A stretch of DNA of 64,000 nucleotides, from contig NC_054704.1 in the NCBI RefSeq assembly GCF_016097555.1, forward strand, positions 24,925,736 to 24,989,735, read 5' to 3'. The stretch's first letter is position 1. Each line of letters opens with the position of its first letter. Below the pieces are notes generated by a model, which had not been told where the DNA came from, made no database searches, and was given only the letters and a program-made list of their open reading frames with translations. A program made the position numbers and the translations under genes. Origin of the DNA: Gigantopelta aegis (Eukaryota; Mollusca; Gastropoda; Neomphalida; Peltospiridae). Below are positions 14,901 to 57,832 of the stretch, piece after piece.

Positions 14901-17900
14901 CTGCCCACAACAGGTGTCAGTGTTGTTCTCCACTGGGTTTTATCAATGCTGGTGATGGACTCATCATGGAAGACTACATTGAGCACCTATTTCATGATTA
15001 AGATTCAAACACTCACTCATGGGCACACAAAGTTATCATTTCATTTCATTTCAACCTATTTCTGTGCTTATATCCAATTATGGTTCGAGCACGCTGTCCT
15101 GGGCACACACCTCAGCTGTCTGTCCAGGACAGTGGGTTAGTTGTTAGTTGGTTAGTGACAGAGAAGAGGGTGTAGTGGCCTTACACCTACCCATGGAGCA
15201 CTTAAGAACTCGCTCTGGGTTGAAGCCGGTACTGAGCTGCGAGCCCTGTACCTACCGACCTGTAGTTTGATGGCTTAACCACTGCACCACTGAGGCCGGT
15301 ACAAAGCTATCTGGGCTGTCTGTAGAGCTCCATATTAACACTTGTCCACTTGTCTGGCACAAGAAGATTTGGGTGTAATAAATTGGTGCAACAACTTGCT
15401 TGACTGAACAAATCAACTGAAAAGTACAGTGAAACCCCTCTAAACCAGACACCCTTGGGACCAAGACAAATGTCCTGGTTTTTAAAAAGGGACTCTGTGA
15501 AACGTCCGGTTTTGAGGAAATTTCGGTTTAGAGAGGGTCCAGTCTTGAGAGGTTTCACTGTACAATACATACTGAACCAAGGATTACCTTTAATGTACAG
15601 TAATTCATGAAAAGTAGGACACTATGACATACGTGTAGTTACCATACACAGCATGCAAGGTGTGAGGATCCCGTAAGAATTAATAACAAGAAGATATGCC
15701 CCAGATAAGAAAAGGTAATGGACACACGGATGGACAGAAAGAAAGAAAGAAATGTTTTATTTCACAACGCACTCAACACATTTTATTTACAGTTATATGG
15801 CGTCAGACATATGGTTACGGACCACACAGATATAGAGAGAAGAAACCTGCTGTTGCCACTTCATGGGCTACCCTTTTTTCGATTAGCAGCAAGGGATTTT
15901 TTATATGCACCATCACATAGACAGGATAGCACATACCACGGCCTTTGATGTACCAGTCTTGGTACACTGGCTGGAGTGAGAAATAGCCCAATGGGCCCAC
16001 TGACGGGGATCGATCCTAAACTGACCATGCATAAAGCGAGCTCTTTACCACTGGGCTACGTCCCGTCCCCCACCCCCCCCAGGGATGGACAGTGTCATAT
16101 CATAATTAGTACAGCTGGGCAGTATTGAAATTTCAGATTCGGTATGGGTATCAGTATTTTGGGGGTGATTTACCTGGGTAACAGTACGGTATTCGGTATT
16201 GATACAATATGATACTGATATCGAGCGGTATTTTCAGTATAATCGTCTTTAAGTGCATTGCAGAGTTAAGTCTCACCCGCTAATTTCATCTAAATAAAAT
16301 TAAAATTCCATACACACGGCCCTCCTCATCTCTCTTCTTTTTAGCTATTTTGTGTCCATCAGATATACTGTTATTGCTTTACTAAATGGTGAAAAACATT
16401 TTTCAATACCGAAATTTCTGTATTTTGAGATTTGAGATAAGGTAAATCGGTATTGACATGAACCAATACCGAATGCTATATATGGTATACCGCCCAGCTC
16501 TATTAATTAGAGAATACTTAACGAGCTATGAGGCAATACTATTTATCTTGAACTACTATTTATCTTGAACAAGCAGTGTTCGAGATTAACGGTATCCCAA
16601 TATCCCGGGGATACCAGAATTTAATTTTGGATACCAGACTTCAAGAACCCAGTATCCCACCGGCATACCATATAATACTAAATTCTCAGGTGGGATACCA
16701 GATTTTGAAATGTTAGTATCCAATTGGGATACTGGCCAAAAAATTTAATCTCGAACACTGACAAGTGAACTGATGTTGTCCTTCCCAAGCCTTTGGTGAG
16801 GGAAAGACATCAATTCACAAGTCAAAGATAAACGGTACTGCCGAGTAGTGAGTTGGGTATTCTATTTATTACCCATTATTAATCTTTATCATTTTATGGA
16901 AGATTTTCAAACGATACTGTTATTGAAAACAAGTTGAGAACAGGAGACAGTGTTGCATCATAGCTGTGATGTACATATCAGTGATGACTCAATTTAGTTT
17001 TTGACATGACTGCCACCATGGAAACTATTTTTACACTTAATAGGGTTGTTTGTTGTTGTCTAACAGTTGTGACATCAAAGCCTATAATTAAGCACTGATT
17101 ATGACTTCAAAACGTATCTTGGGGAAGAAAAGTTGTAATTAATGTATATTTATTTATGTTATTGTTACTGCAGACCTGTCAACCCTCCCAGATTCTGCGG
17201 GAGACTCCCGGTATTTGATCAAGTCTCCCGCGGGGAAAAACGTTTCTCCCAGGAAATTGTTATTTTCTAAGCATAAAAAAAATTCAAGCTACCGTGGCTG
17301 TGTATTGACGTTCAGTGTTGCCATATATAAAACTATCCAATTTAGTCCTAATAACACCTCTGACTCGTAAAATGTCTTCCCACTGGATTACATAACGCAA
17401 AGTTCTATGGCTGGAAGTGCCAGAGTAGACAGCGAACGCATGTATCAATACACACGATGTCAAAATCACATGTCAAAGCAAGACAAGAGAAAGACCAATT
17501 AGCTGTATAAACAATACTTGTATCAATTAGATTTGTAGGTTTGTGCAGTAAAATGTTAGTAACAAGAGTACACTTCAAGGGATTATTTTCCTACGATTAA
17601 TAAATTTTGTTTGACATAACGTTACTCACGGAAATAGGTATAATTCCGGTATATTTCACACGATGTCAGTAATGAGCTTTTACTTATGATTAGTAGAAAT
17701 GATTTGTGGAAATACAATGTTTATTGCATGGTTATGGTGATTTTAAATAAGTACCACACCACTGTACCTTATTGTAGTAAAAACTGAATATTAATTTATA
17801 AAATTTAGGCCTATATAAATTTGTCTTGGGTCTACTTTTCATGAAACACAAATAACGATGATGCAACCTGTAAGTGTAATACTGTAAATGTACTAATTAA

Positions 17901-23900: not shown

Positions 23901-26900
23901 AACTTGGTACACTTTGTCTTAAATTGTTTTTAAACTGGTGAGAATGTATTTTCTTACTTGTTGATGTAGTCCTTCCTAAGAAGTTTTGCATATAAATTTA
24001 ATCCTTCCAAAGACATTTTGTGTATTTACTTAGTACTGTAAATCATGAAATAAATGCAAGATATTAATTATTTTAAAATGTGACCGACTTGGCACATTAT
24101 GTTTGTAACTAATAACACCTCCAAAAATACAAAAGAAAACAAATGCAAACACACACAGTGTGCATCTGTTAGGCTGAAAGTACTACATTATGTCCATAGA
24201 TAGTAATCATGTACCAAAGAAAAACAAACTTAAAATAAATGCATTCTGTACAGCAAAATAAATAGATAACGAATCATTGTTGTTATTATTCACACTTAGT
24301 TACCAAGTAGATTTACCATTAGTAGGTAGAACAACGAAAAAAAAATTAAAAAATATGTGGTCAAGTTTTTTATTTTAAACAAAAATATGTACCGAAGGAT
24401 GTAAATTAATGAAAATCGGACGGAAAAATATTTAGTGGTTAGAAAGTTATAGCCCTTTGAAGTTTTGTGTGCTGTGAAATATGTCTGCCAAATTTTGACT
24501 CGCTTTTTTAAACTTGCCGGTTAAACTCAACTACTGATCGCCATGTGTATATTTCACTTTAAAATGGAACAGAAACACGCCAAATATTATTCTGGAATAT
24601 GTAATAGTGTTTTTGAAGCCACTGGAAAATGGTAACATATACCATTATAATGATAAAATGTTATCATGAACCCTAACGTCGTTATAAACGTAAAATCAGA
24701 AAATAAGCAATACAAAGCGACGTTGTTGTTTTCACAACTTAATATATTTATTTAGCCTATCAGGACAATGCAACAATACCCCATTTATTTCCAACTTCTA
24801 TTATGCATAAATAGTGAAACAATGTTACATAAAAAATAAAGGTGGTGCACATGGGCGCTTGAATGAGCATATGACCGAAAGCTAGTGACAGGGACTAGTC
24901 CATTGTAATATACTACTCAAAAGAATTTAAGGGTCAAAAATTTATAACCAAATAAGTTTCAGAGTGTATTAGATTGATGATGTAAACTACACCAATTTTT
25001 TTATTTATTGTTCCATATTTACAAAAAACCACAAATAAACGTCACTGTATACAAGAAAGTCACATGACATGCTGTCAAAGTTGAAGGTTGTCAAACATGG
25101 ATTTTACACATTAGAACATTCGTTTAATAGTGTGTGAATCCACCCCTGGCGCGAATACACTCGACACATCGTTGCCTCATGCTGTTGATCAGACGTCTGA
25201 AGAACTCTTGGGGAATGGCCTGCCACTCTGCCATAAGAAGTTGACCCAGATCATGAAGGTTGGCCGGAGGGGCATGGTTATCCCGAACTCTCCTGCCTAA
25301 TTCGTCCCAGGCGTGCTCTATTGGGGCCAAGTCAGGCGAATATGCTGGCCAATCCATATTGGCGATACCTTGTTGTCTGAGAAAGTCCGTTACCACCCTG
25401 GCGCGGTGGGGTCTGGAATTGTCATCCTGCAGAACTGCCCCGCCGCCAATCTGCTGAAGACTTGGGAGAACCAACGCCCGGATAATCTCATTCAGATAGC
25501 GGATTCCATTCAGATTGCCATCCACCACATAGAGGGGGGTCCTGTGGTGGATAGAGATGCCGCCCCACACCATGACGCTGCCACCACCGAACCGGTGACG
25601 TTGTCTAACGTTAACGTCAGCGAAGCGCTCCCTAGGACGTCTGTAGACACGAACCCGACCGTCGTTGAACTGGAGACTAAACCTGGACTCATCAGTGAAC
25701 ATCACTCGACCCCACTGAACACGTTGCCACCGCCGATGAAGCGTGCACCAGTGACGTCTGGCCGTTCTGTGACGTGGTAGGAGTGGTGGTCGAACAGCCT
25801 GGCGACGGCAGCGTAGTTTATTGGCTCTCAGACGATTGCGTATGGTTTGATCAGACACTCGAGTTCCAGTCGCAGTCCGCAGATTGTCACGTAATCGGCG
25901 TGCAGTGGTTGTGCGTTGACGTAGAGCCATATTGGTCATGTAGCGGTCCTCTCTATTTGTAGTGCTTCGGGGTCTTCCCGAACGTGGACGATTTCGAACA
26001 GAATTCGTTGCTTGGTACCGTTGCCACAGTCGGCCAACGACACTCTGACTGACACCAAGTCTCAGAGCAACATTTCTTTGCGTATTGCCATCCTGAAGCC
26101 AAGCAATAGCCCTTCCTCGATCTTCGATAGTCAGTTGAAGTCGTACCATTGTCGAATTTGGAGTGTGCACCGTACACGAACGCAAGCTCCAATTATACGG
26201 AAATTCAGCATTGGGAACATGGAATACACGTGCAAAGCGTGCAAATGAAGCACTTTGTGAAAAAGCAAGTTATGGGCACTTAGCAGACCTTTTGCTTTCG
26301 CCCTAATTTACGTGCAAATGTAAGCATCTTTTCGCCATTAGAACTAGTCAACAGTGTCAATGACAGTGGATTTAAATTCATTTATGGGTTGCTTAGACCC
26401 ACTTTCGTAAAAATGGAACAATACCATGCGTGACATTATGGTCTAGCTAATATAACTGACATTCAGAAAATAATGTCGAAAATATCGTCTGACCCTTAAA
26501 TTCTTTTGAGTAGTATACAATAGGGTAAAATGATAGTGAAAATATCTTGAAGAAAAATAAAGTTGGTGGTTGGGGGAGGGGGTGATGGGTCTTTTGGGGG
26601 GTGGTGGGGGGGCGGGGGGTTGGGGGGTGGTGGTGGGGCGTTTGGGGGGGGGGGGGGAGTTCTTGATTTAAGCTGAGTAACAAAAAATACATTTTGTAAA
26701 ACAGGCGCCTGTGCAGGAAATTGTGTAGAGGTCTAGACTGTGGCTAGCAAAGGTTTTTGTGTGTGTGTTGGGGTGGGGGTGGGGGTGGGGTCATGTTTCT
26801 CCGGAAAATAGGCTACATTAAAAATGAACAATATAGCATGTAGCATATTACCTAAAATATCTATTTTTATTATTTAACTATTAAAATTGTGTTACTGTCA

Positions 26901-29900
26901 CACACAATTCTTTATAAAAACTGTAGGTGTGTTTCTATGAAGTTATGCTAATTAATGTGAGGCGAGATTGCAGCTTTAAAAAAAAACAGGAGAAAATGTC
27001 CATGCAAGAAACAAGCAAAACAATGTAATTGTGGGTGAGAGTTCGCTAGTCATAATGTATTCGGGCTAGATTCACCTCCAATATTTGACACATGGTCAGT
27101 TATAACAAAACACAATTTCAGCAACTTAGGCCCTAATATTTATTTTTAAAAACTAAAACACATGTCACATACTAGGCAGTGCCACCTTGAAGCGATGCAT
27201 TATGGGATTGATAAAATGGCTGCCGCCATGACTGCTGAGACAACCCTGGTTAGGACGCCTTGCGCTCAAATGCGCTAGGGTGAAATGACTTGAAACTTCA
27301 AAGAAAACATAGAAATAGGTATCAATTTAACAATTGAATATGTGAACTTGATGTGCTGAAGTATAGAAATATATTCAAAATCCATTTGAAGTTCAATGTT
27401 TTTCAAAGTACATTTAAAATATCACATTTCGTTATCAGTGACAAAATCGACCTTTCTCTACAATGAGCCACGTCTTGAACGCCTCAAAACACTTCTAAAA
27501 GAAGCCATTGACGTCAGATGTCGAGTTAAGACAAAATTATCATTATTAGCTGTAAAAATGGCCGCGACGTCATACTTTTTTGACGTCATTGACAGAGCTC
27601 TCTTGAAAATCGTTATTGGTGTAATTTTAACTGAATTACAAATTAAATAATTATATCTGTTGGAAAAGACGACATGTATGTACATCTATTTAATATCACT
27701 ACATTTAATTGGGAGGCTGTAATGTGTGTGTTGAAAAGTGAGTCATTTAAGCTGGTGGCAGATATGCAGCGCAAAGTGACGTCAAACTTTGTCATACCTA
27801 CCATTAGCTCCACATCTTGTCATTTCTGTCAAGTGTGGTACTCTGCATACGAAGTGGAGGAAACTACTACCAATTAACAAACATGGCTAGCTTGGACTGT
27901 AAAAATAAATGCCTACTTCCTGATGTAACATCATAATAAAATAAATTTACTGAAAACAAATGAGCATTTTTTTTTTTTTTAAATTTCATGTGTGATGTTT
28001 AAGTATATTTCGAATCTGCCAAGTTCAGTGAAGATGGGTTTTTTTCTCTTGTTCAATAAAATGTATGGGCTGGTCCAAACACAACATGATGTCTTATTTT
28101 TCAGGTATACAGCAGTTACTTCTTAATATAAAATCAGAATTATTTAGATCAACCGGTAACTGCAGTTATGTATTGTTAAAAACATAGTTTTTAGCATCTC
28201 ACCTTGTGGTTATCTTTTAGAGTATTGCCTAGACAAACGTCACACTTTTCACAATGAAAGAAATTTTCAGCACCACCTATTCTGAAAATATATAATAAGT
28301 ACATTAAATCTTCACTGTGCTATTACTGATAGCAATACATGTAAATTATATTCGTGTTCATGTCAATAGTAACAGTGGTATAGATGTTAAACCTATAGTT
28401 TACAGCAAAAAAATAAATTCAATGTTAATTCTACAGAATTTATTATTATGAGGGGGCAGGATCGATCCCCGTCAGTGGGCCCCATTGGGCTATTTCTCGC
28501 TCCATCCAGTGCACCACGACCGGTATATCAAAGACTGTGGTAAGTGCTATCCTGTCTATGGGATGGTGCATATAAAAGATCCCTTGCTGCTAATTGAAAA
28601 TAGCCCATGAAGTGGCGACAGCGGGTTTCCTCTCTCAATATATGTGTGGTCCTTAACCATATGTCTGACGCCATATAACCGTAAATAAAATGTGTTGAGT
28701 GCATCGTTAAATAAAACATTTCCTTCCTTATTATTATGACTGCTGTCACAACCATGGGATTCCAGAAAATATACACTTGCAACCCTGGCAATTAGGAAAA
28801 TGATTACGATAGTGATGTCCAATGAACAGTTATAATCGAAAATTGATTGTTTTGGCTCTACCAATGTAATAATTGATTCTAAAAATCCATAATCATTTGA
28901 GTGGGAAAAAGTTTGTTAACTGTCATTGTTCCTCCAGTTTAGATGGTAGAATTAATGTAAATATGGTGGGGTTTGGGTTTTGTTTTCATGCGAACACAAA
29001 GAAAAAAGATATTAAATAGATATTAAAGGTAACATTAGCCATTTGTATAATTTTTCCCAGTGAAGACAACAATAGGTACAATAGGCTTGAAATTCAGATT
29101 CTTCTCAAGTCAATATAATTCTAACCGACTGCTTAATCTAAAGTTAGTTGGCTGGTGCCAACCAATTATAAAGTCTGATGATGAAATTCCAACCGATTCC
29201 TAACACTAGACCACAGCAAAATATTTGCCACGAAAAAATTGTCTCCACTGCCTTTTCCATGGCAGTTTTGAGGTTAATATGTAAGAGAGCAGTTTAATTT
29301 CTTTATATTACAAAAATAAATAATTAACACAGAAAAATTAAAGAAAATTTTAAACACTGAAGCAGTTTTCACAGCATTGCGAGGGTTGTACATGAATGTA
29401 CAGTTTGTGATTTGCAGGCTCGTCCATTATATACTCTTCAAAAGAAGAAACGCAAAACCACATTGTCGTAACATTTGGAGAATTGATTTAATTATTGAAT
29501 GGTTAGTCCGATAATTACCAAATGTTGCAGGATTGTTCACAATTCACTCTAGTCCATTGTGAGTAAGTGATAGGACACACCACCAAGGTCAAGGTCATCT
29601 GGAGTCAATACCGGGTGTGGCCTCCGCGTGTGTTGACAACTGCCTGGCACCGCCTGCCCATTGAAGCAACCAGAGTACGGATGACGTCCCGGGGGATGGT
29701 GGCCCACTCGGCCTGCAAGGCTGCTACCAGCTCGGGCAGGGTCTGGGGCTGTGGTTGTCGCTGTCGGAGGCGTCGGTCCAACTCGTCCCATAGATGCTCA
29801 ATTGGGTTCAAATCCGGTGATATCGATGGCCAAGGAAGGACATTAATGTTGTTGTTCTGTAGGAAAGTCGTTGTGTGACGTGCTGTGTGAGGCCTGGCGT

Positions 29901-32900
29901 TGTCATGTTGGAACACTGCGTTGGCGTTGGCCATAACTGGAACGATGTGTGGCCGGAGGATCTGGTCAATGTAGCCCTGTGCATTCAGGTTGCCCTGCAC
30001 GTGGACCAGGTCAGTTCTGCCAGTGTGTGAGATGGCTGCCCACACCATGACACTACCCCCGCCGAATCTGTCCACTTCCTGCACGCAGTTTGCCGCATAA
30101 CGTTCACCACGACGCCTATACACGCGACATCTTCCATCATGACGTCGGAGCAGAAATCGGGACTCGTCACTGAACCACACCTGTCTCCATCGCAGTTGAG
30201 GCCATTGTCGATGAATCTGGCACCACTGCAGTCGGAGTCGACGGTGTTGTGGTGTTAAGATGACACCTCGAACTGGACGTCTGGCACGAATTCCTACCTC
30301 ACGTATGCGGTTCTGTGCGGTCTGGTCGGATATCCTGCGCAAACCTGGTATTGCTGCGGCTGTGGAGGTGGCAGTAGTCAATCGTTCCCGAAGGTGGCGT
30401 ACCCGGATGTAGCGGTCCTGCCCGGGGGTAGTGACCCGTGGTCGACCGGATCTATGGAGGTCACGTGTTGATCCATGTTGCTGGTAACGGTCCCACAGTC
30501 TGGAGATGGTGCTTGGGGACATATGGAATGCCCTGGCAACGGCCGTTCTGGATTCGCCTGCGTCTAGTCGGCCGATGGCATTGTTTCTCTGCGGTTCACT
30601 GAGACGTGGCATGTCCTGGATTGTCAACTGTCGGCCAGATACAGAGGCCAGGCAAGCGAACACCCTGCACTTTTATACTGTCGGTGTTCATGTTGCACGT
30701 GCAGACAACGCACGTGCAGTGGTGACATGGTTTGCACGTGGCTGCGTTTTTACGAATATTCACATTTTGGAACTTTATTGTACAGTAGCTGCGTTTTATC
30801 AAATGTAACCGTGGGAATGTGTTTGGGACATGCAATGACCTTATATTCACAAAGCATGAACCGGTAGGAAACATAAAATCGGAGTTATAACCCATTTGTA
30901 CCCTTTTGCGTTTCTTTTTTTGAAGAGTATATGTTTAACCTTCATTTTTACTTTCATTTTAATGTAACACTAACAGTGACATATTCATTATTATTTATTT
31001 ACTATCATTTTTTAAGGAAAATATTTAATAGGTTGGGGATTTTTATAACCAAAAGTAGTAGTATTTGACAATGAAACATTACGATTCAAACCTAGTGTCT
31101 AGTTCAGAGCATTCCCGAATGAACGTGGAACATTATAAAATAAACCAAAACATTTCATTTCGCCTATTTTTATCACACTAATCCTCCCATTTCTTCTGGG
31201 AAGGGAGAAGTCACAAATACAATTTAAAAAGTTGGTATTAAAAATGTTTTTACTATACATACCTGCATATACCACATCTATCACAATGAAACTGTTCTTT
31301 GTCTTTATCATCAAACAATCGGCAGATTTCACAAAAGTAGTTTCCAAATACAATTCCACATTTCTTGCACTTACTCCGAACCTAGTAAGAAAAAATAAAT
31401 ATATATATTAGTAAAACATAATGAAAATTGCAAGCAGCTGTGTGTACATTTGGATGTTTACTAAGGTCGATGACAGTCACTTTTTGCACCCTTGTTTCGG
31501 CTTCGTACACAATAGATAAAACATATTCAACGGTAATTTTCTTATATATTTGACAAAAGGTACTTTTATTTTGTTCTTCTTTTAAACCTTAAACTTAATA
31601 TTTTGTCCAGAATAATGGAAAATAAAAACATGCAGACCGGTAAATAGCACTGTCTGCTCACCATAGAATTTCAACAGGGGTCAAGGTTAGTAGACCAGTT
31701 TTTATTTTAATGAGGTGAAGCATTGCAATAATATAGCCAATTTTAAATTTTGATGACATCAGTATTCCAATGATGTCACTTTTCATCTCCTCACAATAAC
31801 CATTAACTGGGTACATGACGTTTCTGTTTTAAGAACGTTGGAAATATTCCAATGTAAAATTGCCATTGACAATTTTTTGTTTGAACATTACTAGTGCTCC
31901 TGAATGTATTTGTAGAAAATTATGTAATTAAAAAATTGTATCTTTTACGAAATACGGATTTCATTTCATTCTTTTCAAACTAATTCTGTGCTTATATATC
32001 CAATTAAGGTTCAAGCACGCTGTCCTGGGCACACACCTCAGCTATTTGAGCTGTCCAGGACAATGGGTTAGTGGTTAGTTGTTAGTGAGAGAAAAGAGGG
32101 TGTAGTTGTCTTATACCTACCCATAGAGTCGTTAAAACTCGCTCTGGGTGGGAGTCAGTACTGGACTGTGAACCCTGTACCTACCGGCCTTATGTCTGAT
32201 GGCTTAACGACGACACCACAGTGGCCGGTTATGGATTTCAAGTGAAATTATGGTAAGATGCGTTATATTTATTGTGTACGAAGCCAAAATAAGGGTGCGA
32301 AAAGTGAATGGTATATTTTGCACAATTTACCCCTTAGCAATATTATCTGATCAAAGTGCTTATTGGTCAATTTCTTGACAATCAATTCATAACTCTGTAT
32401 CTTCTCATCCCATTCCTGAGCTTTAAAAAACCCCAAGATTTTAACATCAGAAAATTGTGCTGCAAATTGCAACATAATACTGAACAAAATATTCCATACA
32501 ATGTACATCTACATGTATTTAAAAATTTATCAGTTACCATATCATTGTATGTTAACTTGAAAGAAAGATGAAGTTACATTTAACCCTACATGACCATGCT
32601 AACACAAACAGAGCAAAGACATTAATACACAAGGAGGAAAAACGGGAACCTCTTGTAACGTATCGCATTTGAGACACTTGATTGTTGTCACTTTTCTGCG
32701 ATCCATTTCATGCAATTCTTTCTCATCATGACAAACACGACAAATGTATTCCTTCTTGCAGCATGGAGCCTGAAAAATTAAACATTTTAACATACATTTG
32801 TACTTGTACATTAACAGGCATTTTAAGAGTACGGTTAAAGCAATAGATTGGTTTTTCCGATTGTCGCCCAGCAGTTTATGACGTTGCTGATAGATGGCGT

Positions 32901-34808
32901 AAACGTACGGCCGCCATTAAGGGAGTGAAATTCATGCAACAATAACATGTGACGGCACTGCAGCTGGGTGCAATTTCAGTCTTTATGACTTTTTGGAACG
33001 ATTTGCAAAAGCAAAACCAGCATCTCGGATAATTCAACCTTATTTAAAGATTGTATATTCATATAAATATCAGTGGAAATCTGTGAATGATTAAAAACAT
33101 AAATAATAAAGCACCTATATATGCCAATACAAAAGCATAGCGAATAAATTAAACACACGCAAGTGTAAATAATTTTGATGGTTATTAAGTGAAACTTTAC
33201 TGAATCAATTATGTACATTTGTAGAAAACGTGGTGTACCATTTAAAAAAACAAAAAACAAAGACTGACCTTAGATCTAGAATAGATGTCAATGTTGTCAC
33301 ATGTGGTCACATGGGGTTGAAGTGGGGCACAGTTAACACTGCCAAATATTTATCTCTTATTTATTTATTTATATTTTTTTTTATACATACGAGTTATTAT
33401 GATGATGTTAAATGTGTGCGATAAAATGATAAATAAATAATTTACTGATGTAACACACATGCATGCCACACCAAAAATTGCACCCACACCCATTTCGTCA
33501 AATTTTTTTATCATTATTTTATATTTTATTTATTTTTTAGTTTTATTAATATTAATTAATAAATAAATAATAATAATAAAAATAAATAAATAAAATAAAT
33601 TATTTATTTATTTATTTGCTATTATTTTATAATTATAATATATATTTTTTAAATTATTAATCTTTTGTTTCTTGGGGAAAAAAATGAAATTAATCATCCA
33701 CAATTATACAACACTAAATTACTAGAACGCTACAGAACGCTAAAGAAAGAAACCCGACAGCACCCACATTCAGCTACGCTTCGTGGCACTCCGTCGCAAC
33801 AATTGCAAAGCTCGGCAATCTATTTCGAGACGTAGACCACGTGATCGCGCACTGGGCGATTCCGCCTTGTGCAGCAGTTACAGGGGCCGTCTCATATCAA
33901 GCGAAGTTACAACATGGAAGAGTTGGCTAATGCCGTTTTGGATGAATTTGGATTTCATTACGTCATTAAACCAAAACAATTACACATTATTGATTCCATT
34001 TTGAATTTGAAGGATACATTTGGGGTGTTATCGACAGGATACGGCAAAAGTATGTGCTACGTACTGCCTCCTCTTATGAGATGACCCCTGTAACTGCTGC
34101 ACAAGGCGGAATCGCCCAGTCTCGAAATAGATCGCCGAGCTTTGCAATTGTTGCGACGGAGTGTCACGAAGCGTAGCTGAATGTGGGTGCTGTCGGGTTT
34201 CTTTCTGTAGTAAGTGTATTAGTGATTAATATGTGGATTTTTTTGTATCACTTAACTCGAAAATGATTGATGTAAAGGTATTTGACGTCAAACATAGGAT
34301 TGTTGTGGTATTAGAGCGGAACTCGTTGCCTACCGTTTGGTAGTCAGGAATTGCCAAAAAAATACATAGGTTGGTCTCTGACTGTAATGAGAGCGTGTTT
34401 ATGTCCAAATGTCCGTCTAGCTCTCTTACAGTCAGAGTACTCGGGCTAACCCACCCCGTGCAGGGAGAACGCTAAGTCAATACTTTTTTTTAACCACTTT
34501 CTTTCTACGTTAGTTCGGACTAACCTCCCACACAGACACACACTAAATCTGTTTATCACTGATTTACTGGTGTCAGTGGTAACTGATGGACTGATCATCT
34601 CACATCTGATGTCGTGATGGCAATGCCAATGTTTAGTACAGCTGCACTTATTATATGTAGGTTTCTCTACTGTACCAAATACAAATATAAGATTTCAACT
34701 AACAATCAGACAACATTTCCTGAAGTAATGTTCGCATCCTAGTTGATCTGATTCTGCATTTCCTTCAGAACTTTCTTCAATTTCAACCAAATTTTCTTTT
34801 GCCTCCAT
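11843..34808 (-). CDS. RCHY1: RCHY1/Pirh2 RING E3 ubiquitin ligase, 8 coding exons, 258 aa
   Basis: The human orthologue is a p53-induced E3 ubiquitin ligase that targets p53 and other substrates. Coding segments on the minus strand are 34808-34704, 32769-32650, 31381-31263, 28281-28203, 23792-23689, 22263-22234, 21138-20994 and 11917-11843. All introns are GT-AG and the phases join without a break. The product has three zinc modules. The N-terminal CHY finger starts at C25-E-H27-Y. A C3H2C3 RING uses C151, C154, C170, H172, H175, C178, C190 and C193. The C-terminal zinc ribbon has C229/C232 and C247/C250 and ends near GSYNT. Length is 258 aa against 261 in human as I recall it. The start ATG has A at -3 and G at +4. 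Introns hold two Tc1 elements, a solo LTR, two hAT copies and several SINEs. Domain order, spacing and phase leave little doubt about identity; ubiquitin-ligase activity is inferred from the family. Confidence 0.95.
11961..13150 (+). mobile_element. Solo LTR 2 (1190 bp) with 5-bp target duplication
   Basis: Starts TGTGACGG and ends CCATGACA, flanked by GCAAG at 11956-60 and 13151-55. It is an inverted-orientation relative of the LTR at 4876-6109. It lies in the last RCHY1 intron, with its left edge 43 bp from the exon 8 acceptor. Confidence 0.86.
13239..14069 (+). mobile_element. hAT-type non-autonomous element, copy 1 (831 bp)
   Basis: Termini CAGACCTGTCAA and TTGACAGGTCTG. The interior is the reverse complement of much of the element at 17171-19392. 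The candidate target duplication is imperfect: GGCCTGAT at 13231-38 against CGCCTGAT at 14071-78, offset by a base. A block of about 200 bp present in the other copy is missing here. No coding capacity seen. Confidence 0.75.
14321..14374 (+). repeat. (AATG)n microsatellite
   Basis: Eight AATG units, then AAAG/AATG variants. Confidence 0.9.
14457..14620. repeat. Palindromic repeat
   Basis: Long inverted arms: ACCAGTTATTATCAAATTTA and TAAATTTGATAATAACTGGT, with outer ends ATAAATAGAATAA and TTATTATCCTCTATTTAT. Confidence 0.82.
15030..15301 (-). mobile_element. tRNA-derived SINE, family C
   Basis: Reverse-strand head ACCGGCCTCAGTGGTGCAGT with tRNA-like boxes. The body has GCACGCTGTCCTGGGCACAC. 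A full copy in RCHY1 intron 7. Confidence 0.82.
15427..15560. mobile_element. Short pogo-type MITE with TA target duplication
   Basis: 134 bp. CAGTGAAACCCCTCTAAACC at the left and its inverse GAGAGGTTTCACTG at the right, with TA on each side (15425-26, 15561-62). Confidence 0.8.
15735..16066 (-). mobile_element. tRNA-derived SINE, family B (ATTTAC tail subtype)
   Basis: The tail subtype has CAACGCACTCAACACATTTT and ATATGGCGTCAGACATATGG; the head is as in the other family B copies. Confidence 0.83.
16112..16500. mobile_element. hAT-like TIR element
   Basis: Ends CAGCTGGGCAGTATTG and GGTATACCGCCCAGCTC are inverted. The interior is full of GGTATT-type motifs. No clear target duplication. Confidence 0.6.
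16508..16872. mobile_element. Palindromic element split by a nested TIR element
   Basis: With the nested 16574-16760 piece removed, the arms are inverted around a TGTCCTTCCCAAGCC centre. The outer ends resemble those at 14457, 8553 and 63402 (ATTCTATTTATTACC-like). Confidence 0.6.
16574..16760. mobile_element. 187-bp TIR element with 5-bp target duplication
   Basis: Ends CAGTGTTCGAGATTAA and TTAATCTCGAACACTG, perfect 16-bp inverted repeats, flanked by ACAAG (16569-73, 16761-65). The interior is rich in GGGATACCAG motifs. Confidence 0.85.
18002..19191 (-). mobile_element. pogo/Tigger-like element nested in the hAT copy
   Basis: Left end CAGTCAAACCTGTATATAAC and a matching right end GGTTCGACTA, inserted in the TA-rich middle of the hAT copy. 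The CAGTCAAACC terminus and the repeated ACGGYCACC motifs resemble pogo-type ends, and the transposase remnant inside supports that. Target-site bases are too TA-rich to resolve. Confidence 0.7.
18130..18395 (-). pseudogene. N-terminal fragment of pogo/Tigger (CENP-B-like) transposase
   Basis: Read on the minus strand from the ATG at 18395 the frame gives [20 protein letters not shown], a stop, then [20 protein letters not shown] and [20 protein letters not shown]. This is the CENP-B N-terminal helix-turn-helix layout, in which a K-E-K-G...IA..FGVG...ILK pattern precedes a basic linker. One in-frame TGA and the loss of the DDE catalytic region make it non-functional. Confidence 0.72.
20155..20275 (+). 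repeat. Dispersed repeat, empty-site copy
   Basis: ACTATTTTTGTGTGCAATTT and TAGAAAACAATTGG, then GAAAAAAGGTGTT. The same sequence surrounds the SINE at 36114-36415. Confidence 0.8.
20571..20792 (-). mobile_element. SINE family B, head missing
   Basis: Tail and body as at 1300-1584, ending at GGGCCCAGAAG, without the tRNA-like head. Confidence 0.78.
20994..21138 (-). CDS. RCHY1: RCHY1 coding exon 7 (aa 187-234)
   Basis: Encodes [10 protein letters not shown], the last RING ligands C190 and C193, then a helical linker with WKYMDEEI and MPDEYKD, and VLCRDCHK, the first zinc-ribbon pair. Compare human WRQLDDEV and MPSEYQ. Donor GTGAGT, ending in phase 0. Confidence 0.95.
21700..21793 (-). mobile_element. 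SINE family B, internally deleted
   Basis: The tail joins after AATCATCGG directly to GGATCGATCCTAGACCGACC; the middle is gone. Confidence 0.75.
22015..22193. mobile_element. Short TIR element, GGGCTAGC family
   Basis: GGGCTAGCTCTGCCACTC and CACCCAGTGCTAGCCC are inverted ends. Same family as 10069-10253. Confidence 0.62.
22234..22263 (-). CDS. RCHY1: RCHY1 coding exon 6, 30-nt microexon inside the RING
   Basis: Thirty bases encode TCYLSLLKT plus parts of the flanking codons R176 and G186, including RING ligand C178. Acceptor TTTGCAG and donor GTATGT are both good, and phase 2 to phase 2 continuity joins the RING exactly. Confidence 0.9.
22747..23041. mobile_element. Short TIR element in RCHY1 intron 5
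   Basis: CAGGGTTTCTAGA at the left and TCTAGAAGCCCTG at the right, flanked by CAGAT on both sides. Superfamily uncertain (hAT-like ends). Confidence 0.72.
23689..23792 (-). CDS. RCHY1: RCHY1 coding exon 5 (aa 142-176 start), first half of RING
   Basis: Encodes [20 protein letters not shown] and [13 protein letters not shown] ligands C151, C154, C170, H172 and H175. Acceptor TTTTTCAG and donor GTGAGT. Ends two bases into R176. Confidence 0.95.
24911..26515 (-). mobile_element. Tc1-like transposon 1 with TA target duplication
   Basis: A 1605-bp element with terminal inverted repeats of at least 26 bp (TACTACTCAAAAGAATTTAA at the left end) and TA on both sides (24909-10, 26516-17). It carries a full-length transposase on the minus strand and lies in RCHY1 intron 4 in the same orientation as the host gene. 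Confidence 0.95.
25124..26185 (-). CDS. Tc1-like DD34E transposase, 353 aa, intact
   Basis: A cut-and-paste transposase of the Tc1/mariner superfamily, predicted to bind the element's inverted repeats and insert at TA. The N-terminal part (about aa 13-120) is a paired-like double helix-turn-helix, with ERNRGRA-type [26 protein letters not shown] and an arginine-rich RPRSGRPR linker. The catalytic DDE domain follows: D in [10 protein letters not shown] in LQDDNSRPH and E in [15 protein letters not shown], with exactly 34 residues between the last two. The first ATG is used here; a second ATG at about codon 13 ([10 protein letters not shown]) is also plausible. There is no internal stop, so it could be functional or recently so. 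Expression is unknown. Confidence 0.95.
   Translation of the reverse strand: MRSCTVHTPNSTMVRLQLTIEDRGRAIAWLQDGNTQRNVALRLGVSQSVVGRLWQRYQATNSVRNRPRSGRPRSTTNREDRYMTNMALRQRTTTARRLRDNLRTATGTRVSDQTIRNRLRANKLRCRRQAVRPPLLPRHRTARRHWCTLHRRWQRVQWGRVMFTDESRFSLQFNDGRVRVYRRPRERFADVNVRQRHRFGGGSVMVWGGISIHHRTPLYVVDGNLNGIRYLNEIIRALVLPSLQQIGGGAVLQDDNSRPHRARVVTDFLRQQGIANMDWPAYSPDLAPIEHAWDELGRRVRDNHAPPANLHDLGQLLMAEWQAIPQEFFRRLINSMRQRCVECIRARGGFTHY
26566..26659 (+). repeat. G-rich tract next to Tc1-like transposon 1
   Basis: Many runs of four or more Gs separated by short T/C loops, able in principle to form G-quadruplexes. It lies 50 bp beyond the right end of the element. Confidence 0.85.
26660..28202. other. 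RCHY1 intron 4, right part
   Basis: Short open frames here (27396-27877) show no recognisable domain and contain TGACGTCA-like motifs and AAAATGGC scraps typical of degenerate repeats. I see no gene. Confidence 0.5.
28203..28281 (-). CDS. RCHY1: RCHY1 coding exon 4 (to aa 141)
   Basis: Completes R115, then encodes [18 protein letters not shown] and ends NHK, matching the FFHCLKCNLCL segment of human Pirh2. Acceptor TTTTCAG and donor GTGAGA, ending in phase 0. Confidence 0.94.
28449..28727 (+). mobile_element. tRNA-derived SINE, family B (ATTTAC tail subtype)
   Basis: Starts in the B box (GGATCGATCCCCGTCAGTGG) and ends TAAATAAAACATTTCC, in RCHY1 intron 3. Confidence 0.82.
29432..30929 (-). 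mobile_element. Tc1-like transposon 2 with TA target duplication
   Basis: A 1498-bp element in RCHY1 intron 3. Left end TACTCTTCAAAAGAAGAAAC, right end its inverse with a small difference in the A/T run. TA flanks lie at 29430-31 and 30930-31. Its inverted repeats and transposase differ clearly from those of Tc1-like transposon 1, so it is a separate lineage. Confidence 0.94.
29605..30663 (-). CDS. Tc1-like DD34E transposase, 352 aa, intact
   Basis: A second Tc1/mariner transposase, only distantly similar to the one at 25124-26185. Helix-turn-helix features are [12 protein letters not shown] and [13 protein letters not shown], then the basic linker [15 protein letters not shown]. Catalytic motifs are D in [12 protein letters not shown] in [11 protein letters not shown] and E in [14 protein letters not shown], with 34 residues between the last two. 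The likely true start is the internal ATG near codon 19 ([10 protein letters not shown]) rather than the first ATG, because the preceding residues look non-homologous. The base composition is GC-rich compared with the surrounding intron. No stop or frameshift. Confidence 0.95.
   Translation of the reverse strand: MFACLASVSGRQLTIQDMPRLSEPQRNNAIGRLDAGESRTAVARAFHMSPSTISRLWDRYQQHGSTRDLHRSGRPRVTTPGQDRYIRVRHLRERLTTATSTAAAIPGLRRISDQTAQNRIREVGIRARRPVRGVILTPQHRRLRLQWCQIHRQWPQLRWRQVWFSDESRFLLRRHDGRCRVYRRRGERYAANCVQEVDRFGGGSVMVWAAISHTGRTDLVHVQGNLNAQGYIDQILRPHIVPVMANANAVFQHDNARPHTARHTTTFLQNNNINVLPWPSISPDLNPIEHLWDELDRRLRQRQPQPQTLPELVAALQAEWATIPRDVIRTLVASMGRRCQAVVNTRGGHTRY
31263..31381 (-). CDS. RCHY1: RCHY1 coding exon 3 (aa 76-115 start)
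   Basis: Encodes [20 protein letters not shown] and [10 protein letters not shown], further zinc ligands between the CHY finger and the RING. Acceptor TTACTAG, donor GTATGT. It ends two bases into the arginine codon 115. Confidence 0.94.
31955..32229 (-). mobile_element. tRNA-derived SINE, family C
   Basis: Same body and head as 15030-15301, in RCHY1 intron 2. Confidence 0.82.
32650..32769 (-). CDS. RCHY1: RCHY1 coding exon 2 (aa 36-75), CHY zinc finger
   Basis: Begins with [16 protein letters not shown] and continues through [13 protein letters not shown], the core of the CHY finger, closely matching vertebrate Pirh2. Exactly 40 codons after a strong TTTTTCAG acceptor. The donor (GTTCCC) is weak, but it keeps the 11-residue Cys-to-Cys spacing seen in human once joined to exon 3. 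Confidence 0.93.
33744..34206 (+). mobile_element. TIR element carrying a RecQ-like helicase start, in RCHY1 intron 1
   Basis: 463 bp with near-identical inverted repeats of about 130-150 bp. The left arm begins AGAAAGAAACCCGACAGCAC, and its inverse ends at 34206. The left arm has an extra run of about 20 bp (GTAGACCACGTGATCGC) absent from the right. The centre is a short coding remnant. It looks like an internally deleted derivative of a larger DNA transposon that carried a helicase. Target duplication not clear. Confidence 0.75.
33914..34084 (+). pseudogene. RecQ-like helicase N-terminal fragment (56 aa)
   Basis: From ATG 33914 the frame reads [20 protein letters not shown], then [10 protein letters not shown] and [20 protein letters not shown], followed by a stop. 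This is motif 0 (a KPKQ glutamine motif) and the Walker A P-loop (STGYGKS) of a superfamily 2 RecQ-type helicase. Everything after motif I is missing. It belongs to the surrounding TIR element, not to RCHY1 or RMI2. Whether it is translated is unknown. Confidence 0.7.
34704..34808 (-). CDS. RCHY1: RCHY1 coding exon 1 (aa 1-35)
   Basis: Encodes the start methionine, an acidic and poorly conserved leader (aa 2-23), then GCEHY at 24-28, the first ligands of the CHY zinc finger. The upstream context is A-rich with A at -3. It ends in phase 0 at a GTTAGT donor. The 5' UTR and promoter are not resolved. Confidence 0.93.
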
Positions 34809-36415: not shown

Positions 36416-37943
36416 AGAAAACAATTGGTTCAGAAATAAATAATTTGAAGTAAATTCCAGGTAGCATGAAAAAAGGCGTTCCCCAGTGGGACGGACTATA
36501 TAGTAATGTGGCTTGAGTGTTCTCTAGCCGTGTCCTGGACCAGGCACGGCGCAGCAGGGGTGTGTGTGTGCGGCGCAGGGGACTCTAGCGCCCCCCCCCC
36601 CCCCCCCCCGCCCAATAATTCTGAATCAAAAATATTATTGGAGGTAAATCTTAAGGCAAAGATAAATTTTACTTGTAGCATGCAGGAAATTGGATTGCAG
36701 GACATGTAGTTTTCTAAATTTTACGGGGAGCATATCCCGAACCTCCTAAAAAAAACTTTGCTTTGCGCCTTATAGTGGGTGGAGGGTCCAGAGTTCGAGC
36801 CTGACCACTGATCACATATGTCACTTTACACCTTCATGTTATAGGTTACGCTTTAGAGGTACATGTAACTAGCGGTTTAACGTCACAGTGCCAACTTTTT
36901 GTAGTTTGATCCCATTCTTTCTGCCAATTGTGAATATAGTGTTTTCTTGCTTTGGACATGGTTTCTGTTATGCCTAATGGAACATTTTAAAAATAATTTT
37001 GTTGTTTTTGATTGAAAGTGCTGCTTTAGCTTCAAAGTCGGCTATTTCGTTGCCGTAGATTCAGACGTGGGTTGGTACCCATTCAAAGGTTACGTTTAAG
37101 TTGATAGATCACATACATGTATTTGAGAAATACCGTATCCAAACCACTTCTTTAAAGAAGAAGAAAAAAGATTTGCTGTTGATTTCTATATTGGGATTAT
37201 TAAAAAAGAAAATTGTTTCTGATAAAAAGTCTTCAAATAAATTATCATATTATATAATCAAACTTAACGACACAACCGACGGAAATTACCATTCGTTGAG
37301 ATATAAATTGCCGTAGGTCGGGAGCTTGTTAACGATGTCAAAATGTATACACCTGGTAAATACTATCTGCCAGTGTATGAAATTTGTACATTTAAGATAT
37401 ATCTACATACATCAAAATAACCTTTCAGTCAGTTTTATTTGCTGCAAAAAGTCACTTTAAAACATTGCCGCAGGCAGGGTCAAAATTGCCGTCTTAGGGT
37501 CATTTCATTCATGGCAATTAAGAACAAAATTGCCGTAGGAAGTTTTGGGTGTATAATGTAGACTGTTTTGTGGTGCGCCGTGTATATACATTTTATTTTA
37601 TTTTCATATATGTTAATCACATAAATTATCAAACATTATTAAGACAAGAATATTTCAATAACTTGATTGATGTCCAATGTAGATCATCCTGTTGTGCGCT
37701 GGTGACACTTGTTTTGATACAAGATTATCACAATAAGTAGTGGGCGGGTGATAAACATGTTAATAGTTTAGCTTGTTAAAAGTAATAAAATTATTAGCGG
37801 TAAAATTACCAAAACCCCACATTATATAGCCTACATGTATATTTGTTGTTAATGACGTACGATTTCTATTTTGTTGTGTATTCCAGAAGCTAGTATATGT
37901 TCTCCACATTTAGAAGAAAAGTTTTCGTGGTGTCAAAAACAAG

Positions 37944-42281
<4,338 letters not shown>

Positions 42282-42585
42282 CCTGGTATCGGTGGAATTT
42301 ATAGACCAGTCCTTCATGTGTAAATAACCTGGTATCGGTGGAATTTGTAGACCAGTCCTTCATGTGTAAATAACCTGGTATCGGTGGAATTTATAGACCA
42401 GTCCTTCATGTGTAAATAATCTGGTATCGGTGGAAGTTGTGGACCAGTCCTTCATGTGTAAATAACCTGGTATCGATGGAATTTATAGACCAGTCCTTCA
42501 TGTGTAAATAACCTGGTATCGGTGGAAGTTGTGGACCAGTTCTTCATGTGTAAATAACCTGGTATCGGTGGAAGTTGTGGACCAG

Positions 42586-42691
42586 GACCCCATTCCACGA
42601 AGCGATCTTAGCGCTAAAATCACCTAATTGCACAAGGTAGAAATGCATTTAAAATGATCTTAGGGCTAAGATGTCTTCGTGGAACGGGGCT
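42586..42691. mobile_element. MITE C inside the minisatellite, CAG target duplication
   Basis: A 106-bp near-palindrome with termini like ACCCCATTCCACGAAG at the left and its inverse at the right. It is flanked on both sides by CAG (42583-85, 42692-94), which occurs once in the intact 46-bp unit. Terminal sequence is similar to the element at 57726. No coding. Confidence 0.85.
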
Positions 42692-43384
42692 CAGTCCTTC
42701 ATGTGTAAATAACCTGGTATCGGTGGAATTTGTGGACCAGTCCTTCATGTGTAAATAACCTGGTATCGGTGGAATTTGTGGACCAGTCCTTCATGTGTAA
42801 ATAACCTGGTATCGGTGGAATTTGTGGACCTGTCCTTCATGTGTAAATAACCTGGTATGGGTGGAATTTGTGGACCAGTCCTTCATACGTAAATAACCTG
42901 GTATGGGTGGAATTTGTGGACCAGTCCTTCATACGTAAATAACCTGGTATGGGTGGAATTTGAGGACCAGCCCTTCATGTGTAAATAACCTGGTATCGGT
43001 GGAATTTGTCGACCAGTCCTTCATGTGTAAATAACCTGGTATCGGTGGAATTTGTCGACCAGTCCTTCATGTGTAAATAACCTGGTATCGGTGAAAGTTA
43101 TAGACCAGTCCTTCATGTGTAAATAACCTGGTATCTGTGGAAGTTGTAGACCAGTCCTTCGTACGTAAATAACCTGGTATCTGTGGAAGTTGTAGACCAG
43201 TCCTTCATGTGTAAATAACCTGGTATCGGTGGAAGTTGTAGACCAGTCCTTCGTACGTAAATAACCTGGTATCGGTGGAAGTTGTAGACCAGTCCTTCGT
43301 ATGTAAATAACCTGGTATCGGTGGAAGTTGTCGGTCAGTCTTTCGCTTGTAAATAACCTAGTATCGGTGGAATTTGTAGACCAG

Positions 43385-43531
43385 GGGCCCCATTTTCGAA
43401 GCTATCTTAGCCTACGAAATCGTGAAATCATCGTAAGCTATGACGTCACTATGGCGTGCTCTGTAGTGACGTCACAACCTACGACGGTTTTACGATTTCG
43501 TAGCGCTAAGATGGCTTCGAAAATAGGGCCC
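43385..43531. mobile_element. MITE A inside the minisatellite, CAG target duplication
   Basis: A 147-bp palindrome with termini GGGCCCCATTTTCGAAG and GGGCCCTATTTTCGAAG (reverse complement), with a TGACGTCAC inverted motif towards the centre. Flanked by CAG at 43382-84 and 43532-34. Confidence 0.85.
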
Positions 43532-43534
43532 CAG

Positions 43535-44202
43535 GACCCATATTCACAAAAAGGTGTAAATTTACATCTACGACTAGCATTTACGTCTGCCGTAGATTTA
43601 CCTTTACGCGCAAGAAGCACCTTATTCTCAAAGACGGTCGTAAATGTAAACGTAACTTAGTTGGACGTAAATCTACGATTTAACACTCTCACCGGATAAA
43701 TTAAGAAAAACCCATTAGAAACGATGGCTACCGGGTAAATAACAAATGCTCAAAACTCAATTTCGTTTGTCGTCTGCTAACAATAACATCGCGAACGGCG
43801 AACCATGACATTTTGGTATTGGTGAGGATCCGCGTTTTGTCACGAACTTGAGGACATTTCTTAAAAAGGAAAATATAACTCAGGAGAAATTGGCCGAATC
43901 AAAAACATCCGTTCGATCACCAACAAAACTATGTTAAATCCGTGAGGGTTCGCCATCGCAAACTGCTTCAGTTATTGGAAATGCTGCCAGTTTCCGTAAA
44001 TAATAGTAAATAACGGCGATCGTGCTTGATTTATTATATGTACACGACTTACGTGCAGCGTTAGTTGTAACCGGAGGCACTCTTATATTTACGTCCAACT
44101 TTAAACGTAACTTACGTTTTCGTTGTTTCGTGAATAGCTCTTCAGTCGTAGATTTACGTTTACGTGTAAAACTAGGCTTACGATGTTTTGTGAATATGGG
44201 TC
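43535..44202. mobile_element. 668-bp TIR element B inside the minisatellite, CAG target duplication
   Basis: Immediately follows MITE A, sharing one CAG, and is flanked by CAG again at 44203-05. Termini are GACCCATATTCACAAAA at both ends, with inverted similarity extending about 150 bp through TTTACG-rich arms. No convincing protein. Probably a non-autonomous member of the same superfamily as A and C. Confidence 0.82.
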
Positions 44203-44520
44203 CAGTTCTTCTTGTGTAAATAACCTGGTATCGGTAGCAGATTGAAATGAAGACATGGTACCGTCTTCCCAGGTTCAAATGTAGGATATATTCGAGGCTA
44301 AACAAAACTAATAGCAGACCGAGATGGATCCCCGATTCTCTCTCTTTCCTGGTTACAATATAGACAATATTATCTTCGAAGCTAAAAAAAGACCATTGCG
44401 ATAGTTGTTTGTTCCATAGTGAGTTGCTGCTTGCTTAACACCTGAATCATGTCATGTACAAACGGCCAGAACTTTCTCCAGCTCTGCAGTTGGCTCTTGC
44501 CTCACTGAGTGTTCTGTTAC

Positions 44521-48968: not shown

Positions 48969-49117
48969 AAATACTAATTACCCACATGTGATTAATTCTG
49001 AAACTTGCTGGAACTGCTGCAAAATATGTGAACAAAATCAAGTTCCTGACCAAAATACATCAAAAACATTGCGTAACAACTCCAGATAGACATTGCTTGT
49101 TTGGAATAAAGGTTCAG

Positions 49118-49232
49118 GGGCTTAATTCACAAAGCTCTCTTAGGCTCTGCTGGACAACAAAGCATCCCCTTAGCAAGTCTTTGCATTGCACTGCGATATC
49201 GCAAAGTTCCGAGAGTTTAGTGAATTAAGCCC
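49118..49232. mobile_element. MITE D, palindromic, CWG-type flank
   Basis: 115 bp. GGGCTTAATTCACAAAG and GTGAATTAAGCCC are inverted ends. CAG lies on the left and CTG on the right, which abuts MITE E. Confidence 0.75.
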
Positions 49233-49235
49233 CTG

Positions 49236-49344
49236 GCTCCGTATTCATAATCATACTTAAGTCAATGTATGATACCTAACTAGATACTTAAAGTACATAG
49301 ATAAGTATCATACATTCACTTTAGTACGTTTATGAATATGGAGC
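49236..49344. mobile_element. MITE E, palindromic, back to back with D
   Basis: 109 bp. Ends GCTCCGTATTCATAA and TTTATGAATATGGAGC, flanked by CTG and CAG. It carries an inner ATGTATGATACTTA inverted motif. Confidence 0.75.
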
Positions 49345-50047
49345 CAGATCTCTAAAGAACCAATATTATAGTTTTGGTCGAATTAGGAAAATTTGAACAA
49401 CCATTAGTGAGAACCGGAATTACCATTTGGACACCGGTTAAGCAAAGCATAATGTCAGAAACATAATAATGTTTTAAATTTAAAAGCCAGGATAGCCCGG
49501 CAGATATCTGCAATATTTGAGGAAATTGTGCCTTTGATGATGCATGAGCATACCCTAAGAAAGATTTCTAGCTATAGGGCCATTACAGATTTGTTCTATG
49601 GCCATAATGGCGGCCATTTTACAAAATGGCTGCCACCGGTTATTATTTTATCAATAGCTCAGGTTCTAGACCACCTAGGATCTTGATTCCGGTAGCTAAT
49701 CTTACATGTTTAAGGACGAGGAATGCAGTGGTATTTGCAACACGCTAGCAACTACCTAACTACATATATTTAGCATTCAGGGAAATAAATAATAGTAAAA
49801 CCATTAACATATTTAATATTGGCGGAGCTATACATGCAGTACTTTCCCATGTGTTCTTTATAATACTTGGTATTTATTTATATGAGCACATAGTTTACGA
49901 GATTATGCTGTATCTTGCAAATTAATATTGCATGTCCCAATGTTGTTTGGCATGTTAGTGGTGACCACAAGTCCACGACAATCCCTCCATTATTAACCAA
50001 GTAAGGCCTCCCATGGTAGTTTTATAGGTTTGCAATGAAATGCAACG

Positions 50048-57725: not shown

Positions 57726-57832
57726 GGCCCTGTTCCACAACACAATCTTAGTGCTAAGATCACCTCAGGTGAATAATTATATTATGTACTTGAGGTGATC
57801 TTAACGCTAAGATCGCTTCATGGAACGAGGCC
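57726..57832. mobile_element. MITE F, palindromic, CTG target duplication
   Basis: 107 bp with ends GGCCCTGTTCCACAACA and GGAACGAGGCC, and CTG on both sides (57723-25, 57833-35). Sub-terminal ATCTTAGTGCTAAGATCACC makes it a relative of MITE C at 42586. Confidence 0.82.

Follow-up and report, generated by a model that had tools for sequence, protein, structure and literature searches.

Three families of miniature inverted-repeat elements (MITEs) in the gastropod Gigantopelta aegis are flanked by 3-bp target duplications, and in about 30% of the copies flanked by CWG (W = A or T) this duplication is unfaithful at its middle letter. That is, one side reads CAG and the other CTG. The three families, here called A, B and C, have a common target, a CWG-centred palindrome roughly 17 bp long that reads approximately TAnaGACCWGGTCtnTA. 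We suggest, tentatively, that an excised element may carry a letter of its former site into the new one. The starting point was a stretch of 64,000 nucleotides, the window, which lies on contig C6 of a 1.15 Gb assembly and in which one copy of each family has entered the same tandem array. Positions without a contig name are those of the window.

The array begins where a gene ends. There, a frame of 48 residues running to 42278 gives a match to RMI2 (PF16100, E = 5.7e-12, profile positions 85–130), and a candidate upstream exon at 37914–38129 matches profile positions 2–51 with an E value of 4.9e-5, below Pfam's cut-off. These Pfam matches place the RMI2 gene at 37914–42278, with an exon near 37914–38129 and the end of the last exon at 42278. 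At the stop-codon end, at least 20 tandem repeats of a 46-bp unit follow downstream, forming an array at 42243–43384 (plus strand) that is split by element C. The unit contains GACCAGTCC and AACCTGGTA. Unit 1 is the end of the RMI2 coding exon, and each unit is a copy of the last codons of RMI2, the stop and the bases after the stop. Judged from this layout, the array and its inserts C, A and B should lie in the RMI2 3′ untranslated region.

Each array unit has two CWGs, one CAG and one CTG. The sequence-only reading held that all three elements sit at the unit's CAG with CAG on both sides, and direct reading and a script bear this out. Element C, a hairpin-like MITE of 106 bp at 42586–42691 (direct reading, script and folding), lies between CAGs at 42583–42585 and 42692–42694. 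Element A, a near-perfect hairpin of 147 bp at 43385–43531 (script, genome search and folding), lies between the CAG at 43382–43384 and a CAG at 43532–43534 that it has in common with B. Element B, of 668 bp with 17-bp inverted ends, occupies 43535–44202 (script and genome search), and its right CAG, at 44203–44205, opens a final partial array unit ending at 44245. All are given on the plus strand. By script, the inverted ends match at 17 of the first 18 bases in A, 17 of 17 in B and 14 of 17 in C. The entry point of C and of A is the GACCAG of the array unit, and joining the flanks by script confirms that removal of the inserts restores intact units. The further claim that two elements hit one unit holds insofar as A and B do lie in one unit. 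They do so through the common CAG, however, so that the second element used the junction made by the first, and the array alone is rejected as the cause of the two hits. By chance, two hits would fall on CAG alone in 1 of 4 cases and three hits in 1 of 8. Since the unit has two CWGs, the case for a site preference rests on the genome-wide target motif and not on C, A and B.

A first look at the genome gave 2119 candidate places for A, 813 for C and 1113 for B, and the best 40 of each were scored. The best 40 of the 2119 A places match the query at 99–100% identity along 139 or more of 145 bases. With the window's own copies set aside, the best 40 show 94–96% identity for B and 85–90% for C. 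A pattern search for exact ends next to a CWG matched 908 times for B, 1012 times for A and 2516 times for C, and the reversed control pattern 0 times. The lengths (106–668 bp), inverted ends and high copy number of A, B and C are those of MITEs, and the window's frame listing holds no frame of at least 100 aa within A, B or C alone, the frames that cross the elements extending into the flanks. A and C fold as hairpins, as do two more elements of the window, D and E. A diverged copy of family C (76% identity over 100 bases) is present on the minus strand at 57727–57825. Elsewhere, seven C-type left ends lie on the same strand within 1.1 kb (contig C1, 16531201–16532287), as if the end of a MITE had been multiplied into a tandem array.

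A search of the window for the bare structure, CWG beside inverted ends, gave 17 candidates, against 7–20 for other triplet pairs. Structure alone is thus weak evidence, and copies elsewhere were required. Thirty loci per family were fetched (90 copies, those of the window included) and the triplet beside each end was tabulated. Both ends were readable in 88 copies. CWG stands on both sides in 70 of the 88, whereas TWA was found in none of them. The tabulation therefore upholds CWG on both sides, but the two triplets are identical in only 48 of the 70. The sequence-only reading had named differing or missing target duplications as evidence against itself, and such copies occur: 22 of the 88 combine a CAG flank with a CTG flank, so that only the middle letter differs, and 14 differ otherwise (C 10, B 4, A 0). 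The remaining four have an identical non-CWG triplet on both sides (CAT, CTT, TTG and AAG). For two of these four, CAT (L029) and CTT (L045), an empty paralog contains the same single triplet, which points to duplication of 3 bp exactly. Several paralogous empty sites contain one CWG.

The target preference extends beyond the triplet. The motif was built from 139 half-sites, with 8 that abut other elements, the window copies and one segmental duplicate (L021) left out. Counted outward, the letters that stand out against background are G at +1 (0.58 versus 0.23), C at +3 (0.47 versus 0.19), T at +6 (0.56 versus 0.29) and A at +7 (0.65 versus 0.32). Matrices trained on two families tell half-sites of the left-out third from background with an AUC of 0.81 for A, 0.88 for B and 0.82 for C. 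The array CAG scores 4.4–4.6, in the top 0.6–0.7% of 5,120 CWG sites, and the array CTG scores 0.39, in the top 11%; the higher score of CAG accounts for its choice over CTG in the array. Two A copies (L019 and L023), and more distantly a third (L022), occupy one and the same GACCWGGTC position in a dispersed repeat. The claim of a strong preference for one CWG trinucleotide is thus right as to the strength of the preference and too narrow as to its object, which is the palindrome.

Elements also stack. Judged by a fixed set of termini, 8 of 147 ends abut another element across one CWG, and inspection added one more case (L047). In the window itself, D (49118–49232) and E (49236–49344) form a stacked pair, CAG-D-CTG-E-CAG, at 49115–49347 on the plus strand, and the flanks of both are mixed. 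Stacks of different families comprise A|B and D|E in the window, D|E|C at L027, with CTT between D and E, E|D at L064 and C|D at L047. An abutment within one family, A|A, is found at L015. The ends of the elements score at the 82nd to 99th percentile of half-sites for A–D and at the 62nd for E, so that an insertion leaves fair targets at its own edges. The common palindrome accounts for both stacked MITEs and repeated hits at one repeat position, and of this part of the explanation, target site and stacking, we are highly confident.

Junctions between two B copies need more than this. Exact B|B junctions number 15, spread over 12 places, where 0.55 would be expected on the assumption of about 1000 B copies, and this is about 27 times the figure given by the target model. 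Something besides edge targeting is therefore needed. Three dimers that were examined are head to tail, and their members are 93.0–93.9% identical, as compared to 89.6–99.1% among other copies; they are no more alike than the other B copies compared. The B|B count is probably raised further by dimers that were duplicated or moved as one. One run of B copies with common CWGs (contig C12, 19591728–19594406) alternates between two junction spacings and between CTG and CAG.

The proportion of mixed flanks was obtained from two sources. In the fetched loci, mixed flanks are seen in 11 of 28 A copies (L021 omitted as a segmental duplicate of L020), 6 of 24 B copies and 4 of 17 C copies. Coordinate-ordered lists of ends, which avoid selection by similarity, were paired as well; among the first 100 listed ends of each family they yielded 30 pairs for B (of 908 ends), 23 for A (of 1012) and 12 for C (of 2516). 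Mixed among these listed matches were 7 of 30, 8 of 23 and 4 of 12, respectively. Overall, with a B copy seen twice counted once, 40 of 133 copies are mixed, or 0.30 (interval 0.23–0.38). The interval accommodates 1/3 and 1/4 and excludes 1/2 (p = 5e-6). Left and right letters are correlated in the 65 pairs of the ordered lists (p = 0.007). Full independence of the two sides is rejected on both grounds, and the correlation indicates that the target is usually, though not always, duplicated.

Mutation was considered as the source of the mixed letters in family A and rejected, as the middle letter is discordant in 12 of 30 copies, always A versus T, and the C or the G in 0 of 30. In control families with 5-bp duplications, 10 copies have 0 or 1 difference each. 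Only 3 of 50 positions differ, none of them A versus T (p = 0.0004 against the W data), although 9 of 19 control pairs, with at least 3 differences, had been dropped as false or nested, which favours a low control discordance. The scan for other duplications of 4–10 bp served only to locate these control families.

Paralogous empty sites give the old letter for five mixed copies: CAG for L016, L022 and L081, and CTG for L019 and L090. A second, weaker paralog of L016 reads TAG. For L019 and L022 the stated letter is found in two of three paralogs each, the third being different. The comparison behind L019, L022, L081 and L090 applied stricter filters and did not include L045, L048 or the window copies. 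All five copies keep the old letter on one side. These comparisons of related sites point to a target letter that persists at one end and is lost at the other. The concordant copies L017, L028 and L023 agree with their paralogs, and none of these few copies with a clear CWG empty site has changed at both ends. For L025 the paralogs are split, one CAT and one CAG, and the case is ambiguous. At two places (L044 and L015) the element entered the CAG at the end of a different transposon, whose own 5-bp duplication is intact (GATAT and TAGTC), and the side facing that duplication now reads CTG. A third place of this kind is L053. Finally, a C copy (L033) is flanked by CAG/CAG in a repeat for which 43 paralog matches were scored, 34 of them AAG and none CAG, while L045 carries CTT/CTT at the same repeat position. 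The CAG/CAG of L033 gives a hint that a donor triplet was retained; a prior mutation favoured by the target preference could also produce it.

To account for these findings, we propose the following. A, B and C would be non-autonomous elements, and D and E probably so as well. They would be mobilized by a single transposase or a small set of related ones, probably NuwaI-type enzymes, that recognize the palindrome. The array unit, having a near match to it, would be hit there, and the first insertion would leave junctions that are fair targets, so that a second element lands beside it, with A and B arriving in either order. Movement would be by cut and paste, and at both the donor and the target site the CWG would be cut with a 3-nt stagger. 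The excised element would retain the 5′-CWG overhangs of its donor site. These would anneal to the CWG overhangs of the target through C:G and G:C pairs, and ligation would follow in place of trimming and fill-in. In about half of the cases the middle W:W pair would be a mismatch, and each end would independently resolve it to the letter of the donor or of the target. If instead a 3-nt gap were filled, the two sides would come out identical, and mixed flanks would not be expected. If the donor overhang is retained, its pairing with the target CWG would explain why discordance is confined to W. With unbiased settling, the mixed proportion m would follow m = m/4 + 1/4, by our derivation, and reach a steady state of 1/3; the value found is 0.30.

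The overhang proposal extends a published model of mPing excision, in which a staggered cut across the target duplication leaves 5′ overhangs (PMC4561436). The same source reports that, of 46 insertions from an mPing donor flanked by TCA, 45 were in TTA or TAA, which, for yeast at least, counts against retention of a donor letter by this related element. Retention is opposed, too, by the four copies that have an identical non-CWG triplet on both sides, which carry no donor letter, and by the absence of changes at both ends in the few concordant copies with a clear CWG empty site. We put retention of the overhang at slightly less than an even prospect, and the explanation taken as a whole at evenly balanced. 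Somewhat more doubtful is the broader suggestion that a group of eukaryotic DDE transposons integrates by sticky-end joining and carries one letter of the former site along at many of its moves.

Were this so, the 3-bp "duplication" would be a joint record of donor and target, and the strict preference for CWG could in part reflect base pairing with the donor overhang. Given a retained overhang, the flanks of old insertions would trace the origin of each copy, and carryover of donor letters in the PHIS superfamily could be tested through both junctions. On the practical side, filters that demand identical duplications would lose about 30% of these CWG-flanked insertions.

The strongest rival, in our view an unlikely one, is that a 3-bp duplication was faithful when made and later conversion, between the arms of a hairpin or from other copies of the family, produced the mixed flanks. 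Hairpin-like A, C, D and E have a stem that runs through the CWG, and when a CAG/CAG copy folds back on itself, the W:W is the single mismatch in the triplet. The hairpin A is mixed in 19 of 51 copies and B, with its long loop, in 13 of 53, a difference in the expected direction (p = 0.20). But the loop of B is about 600 bases, and about a quarter of its copies are mixed all the same. Moreover, mixed flanks occur in 3 of 13 A copies with equal ends and in 16 of 38 with unequal ends (p = 0.32), although under conversion both would become equal, and the oldest family, C, is no more mixed than the youngest, A.

Errors of assembly are a somewhat poorer candidate. On this account the duplication is an ordinary, faithful CWG, and consensus or polishing errors at repeat ends flip the middle base. 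The assembly was indeed made from noisy long reads polished with short reads (PMC7895826). Among the letters adjacent to the ends only W varies between copies, and the most uniform family, A, has the highest mixed proportion (p = 0.20 versus B). Away from the elements, however, W is stable: in the array, AACCWGGTAT reads CTG in 21 of 21 cases and GACCWGYYC reads CAG in 20 of 21. L090 matches its empty paralog at all 40 flanking bases and differs in W alone; L020 and L021, two distinct loci related by a 99% segmental duplication, are in the same mixed state; and the alternation of CTG and CAG in the B run on contig C12 is regular.

It is improbable that mixed flanks are what survives of tandem runs, abutting copies with different outer W letters having collapsed into one chimera. 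Abutting copies of one family do exist, as the B|B junctions and the A|A pair demonstrate. Yet a run started from one CWG keeps one letter unless the duplication was already unfaithful, about one-third of all copies would need to be survivors, and the mixed copies with an empty paralog lie in otherwise unaltered flanks. The idea that the triplet is part of variable inverted ends, a mixed pair CTG…CAG reading as an extended inverted repeat, has next to nothing left to it and is refuted by the empty sites that hold one CWG, as well as by the occurrence of all four CAG/CTG combinations and by the single-triplet paralogs of the CAT/CAT and CTT/CTT copies.

An outcome resembling the retention of a donor overhang is known from conjugative transposons of the Tn916 type, in which letters of the donor flank reach the new site as a heteroduplex. 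These elements use a tyrosine recombinase and a longer coupling sequence and make no target duplication; the likeness is one of outcome only. Natural mixed duplications, CAG/CTG or TTA/TAA, were not found reported in the titles and opening lines of abstracts of the open-licence literature searched, in which mismatched target duplications appear only as engineered mPing constructs (PMC4561436).

As for classification, the proposed placement of the MITEs in a CWG, PIF/Harbinger-type group agrees with the CWG flanks but not with PIF/Harbinger in the narrow sense, which duplicates TWA, a flank absent from the 88 readable copies. We call A, B and C NuwaI-like MITEs that probably belong to NuwaI, a PIF/Harbinger-related group of the PHIS superfamily. 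NuwaI elements duplicate 5′-CWG-3′, as confirmed by paralogous empty sites, have inverted ends of 12–61 bp that usually start with GGG, and are found in animals, one mollusc included (PMC4482050). The CWG flanks (70 of 88), single-triplet empty sites and length of the inverted ends fit that description, whereas a GGG start is found in only part of the ends: A starts with GGG or GGC, B with GAC, C with GAC, GGC or AGC, D with GGG and E with GCT. Autonomous NuwaI copies encode a DDE transposase and a Myb/SANT ORF; the copies seen here are non-autonomous. The palindrome of about 17 bp, the stacking and the mixed flanks have no counterpart in the available part of the NuwaI description (PMC4482050).

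The mPing and Tourist MITEs likewise make a 3-bp duplication and have a target preference that reaches beyond it (PMC4561436, PMC2836001); for PIF/Harbinger the preference covers 9 bp in plants and 15 bp in vertebrates (PMC2836001). They differ in that mPing duplicates TWA, and the accessible parts of these sources do not mention natural mixed duplications, in contrast to the mixed CWGs described here (PMC4561436, PMC2836001).

The sequence-only reading had also proposed to look for an autonomous relative with the same ends, and none was found among the DDE_Tnp_4 places, the frames and the stretch examined. The genome has 1104 DDE_Tnp_4 candidates, 150 of which were listed. No A, B or C end among the first 100 listed per family (the C ends covering part of contig C1, the A ends C1 and part of C2) lies less than 11.7 kb from any of 22 DDE_Tnp_4 places listed for C1, for C2 and for the initial part of C3. 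In 86 loci there are 51 open frames of at least 140 aa; Pfam domains in the 10 of these that were scanned were of Tc1 and other types, with no DDE_Tnp_4. Long Tc1-type transposase frames (DDE_3 with HTH_Tnp_Tc3_2) are also present in the window, on the minus strand at 25124–26269 and 29605–30672.

Facing B ends bound longer stretches of about 2.2–2.9 kb at four places: 5019445–5022355, 24297107–24299284 and 37702619–37704911 on contig C1, and 10314939–10317112 on C2. The first of these, a B-ended element of 2.9 kb, has no frame longer than 80 aa in its middle 1,001 bases. The B-bounded stretch of 2.9 kb (L091) has a short sequence, with matching terminal letters, in common with an inverted-repeat stretch of the window at 33852–34117, and another repeat may possibly be nested inside it. 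Other inverted-repeat families, with the ends CATGGGCGGATCCA, CAGTGTTCGAGATT and CAGGGCCGTAGCTA, make 5-bp duplications; they were found at L018, L036, L038, L040, L041 and L042 and at 16574–16760 of the window.
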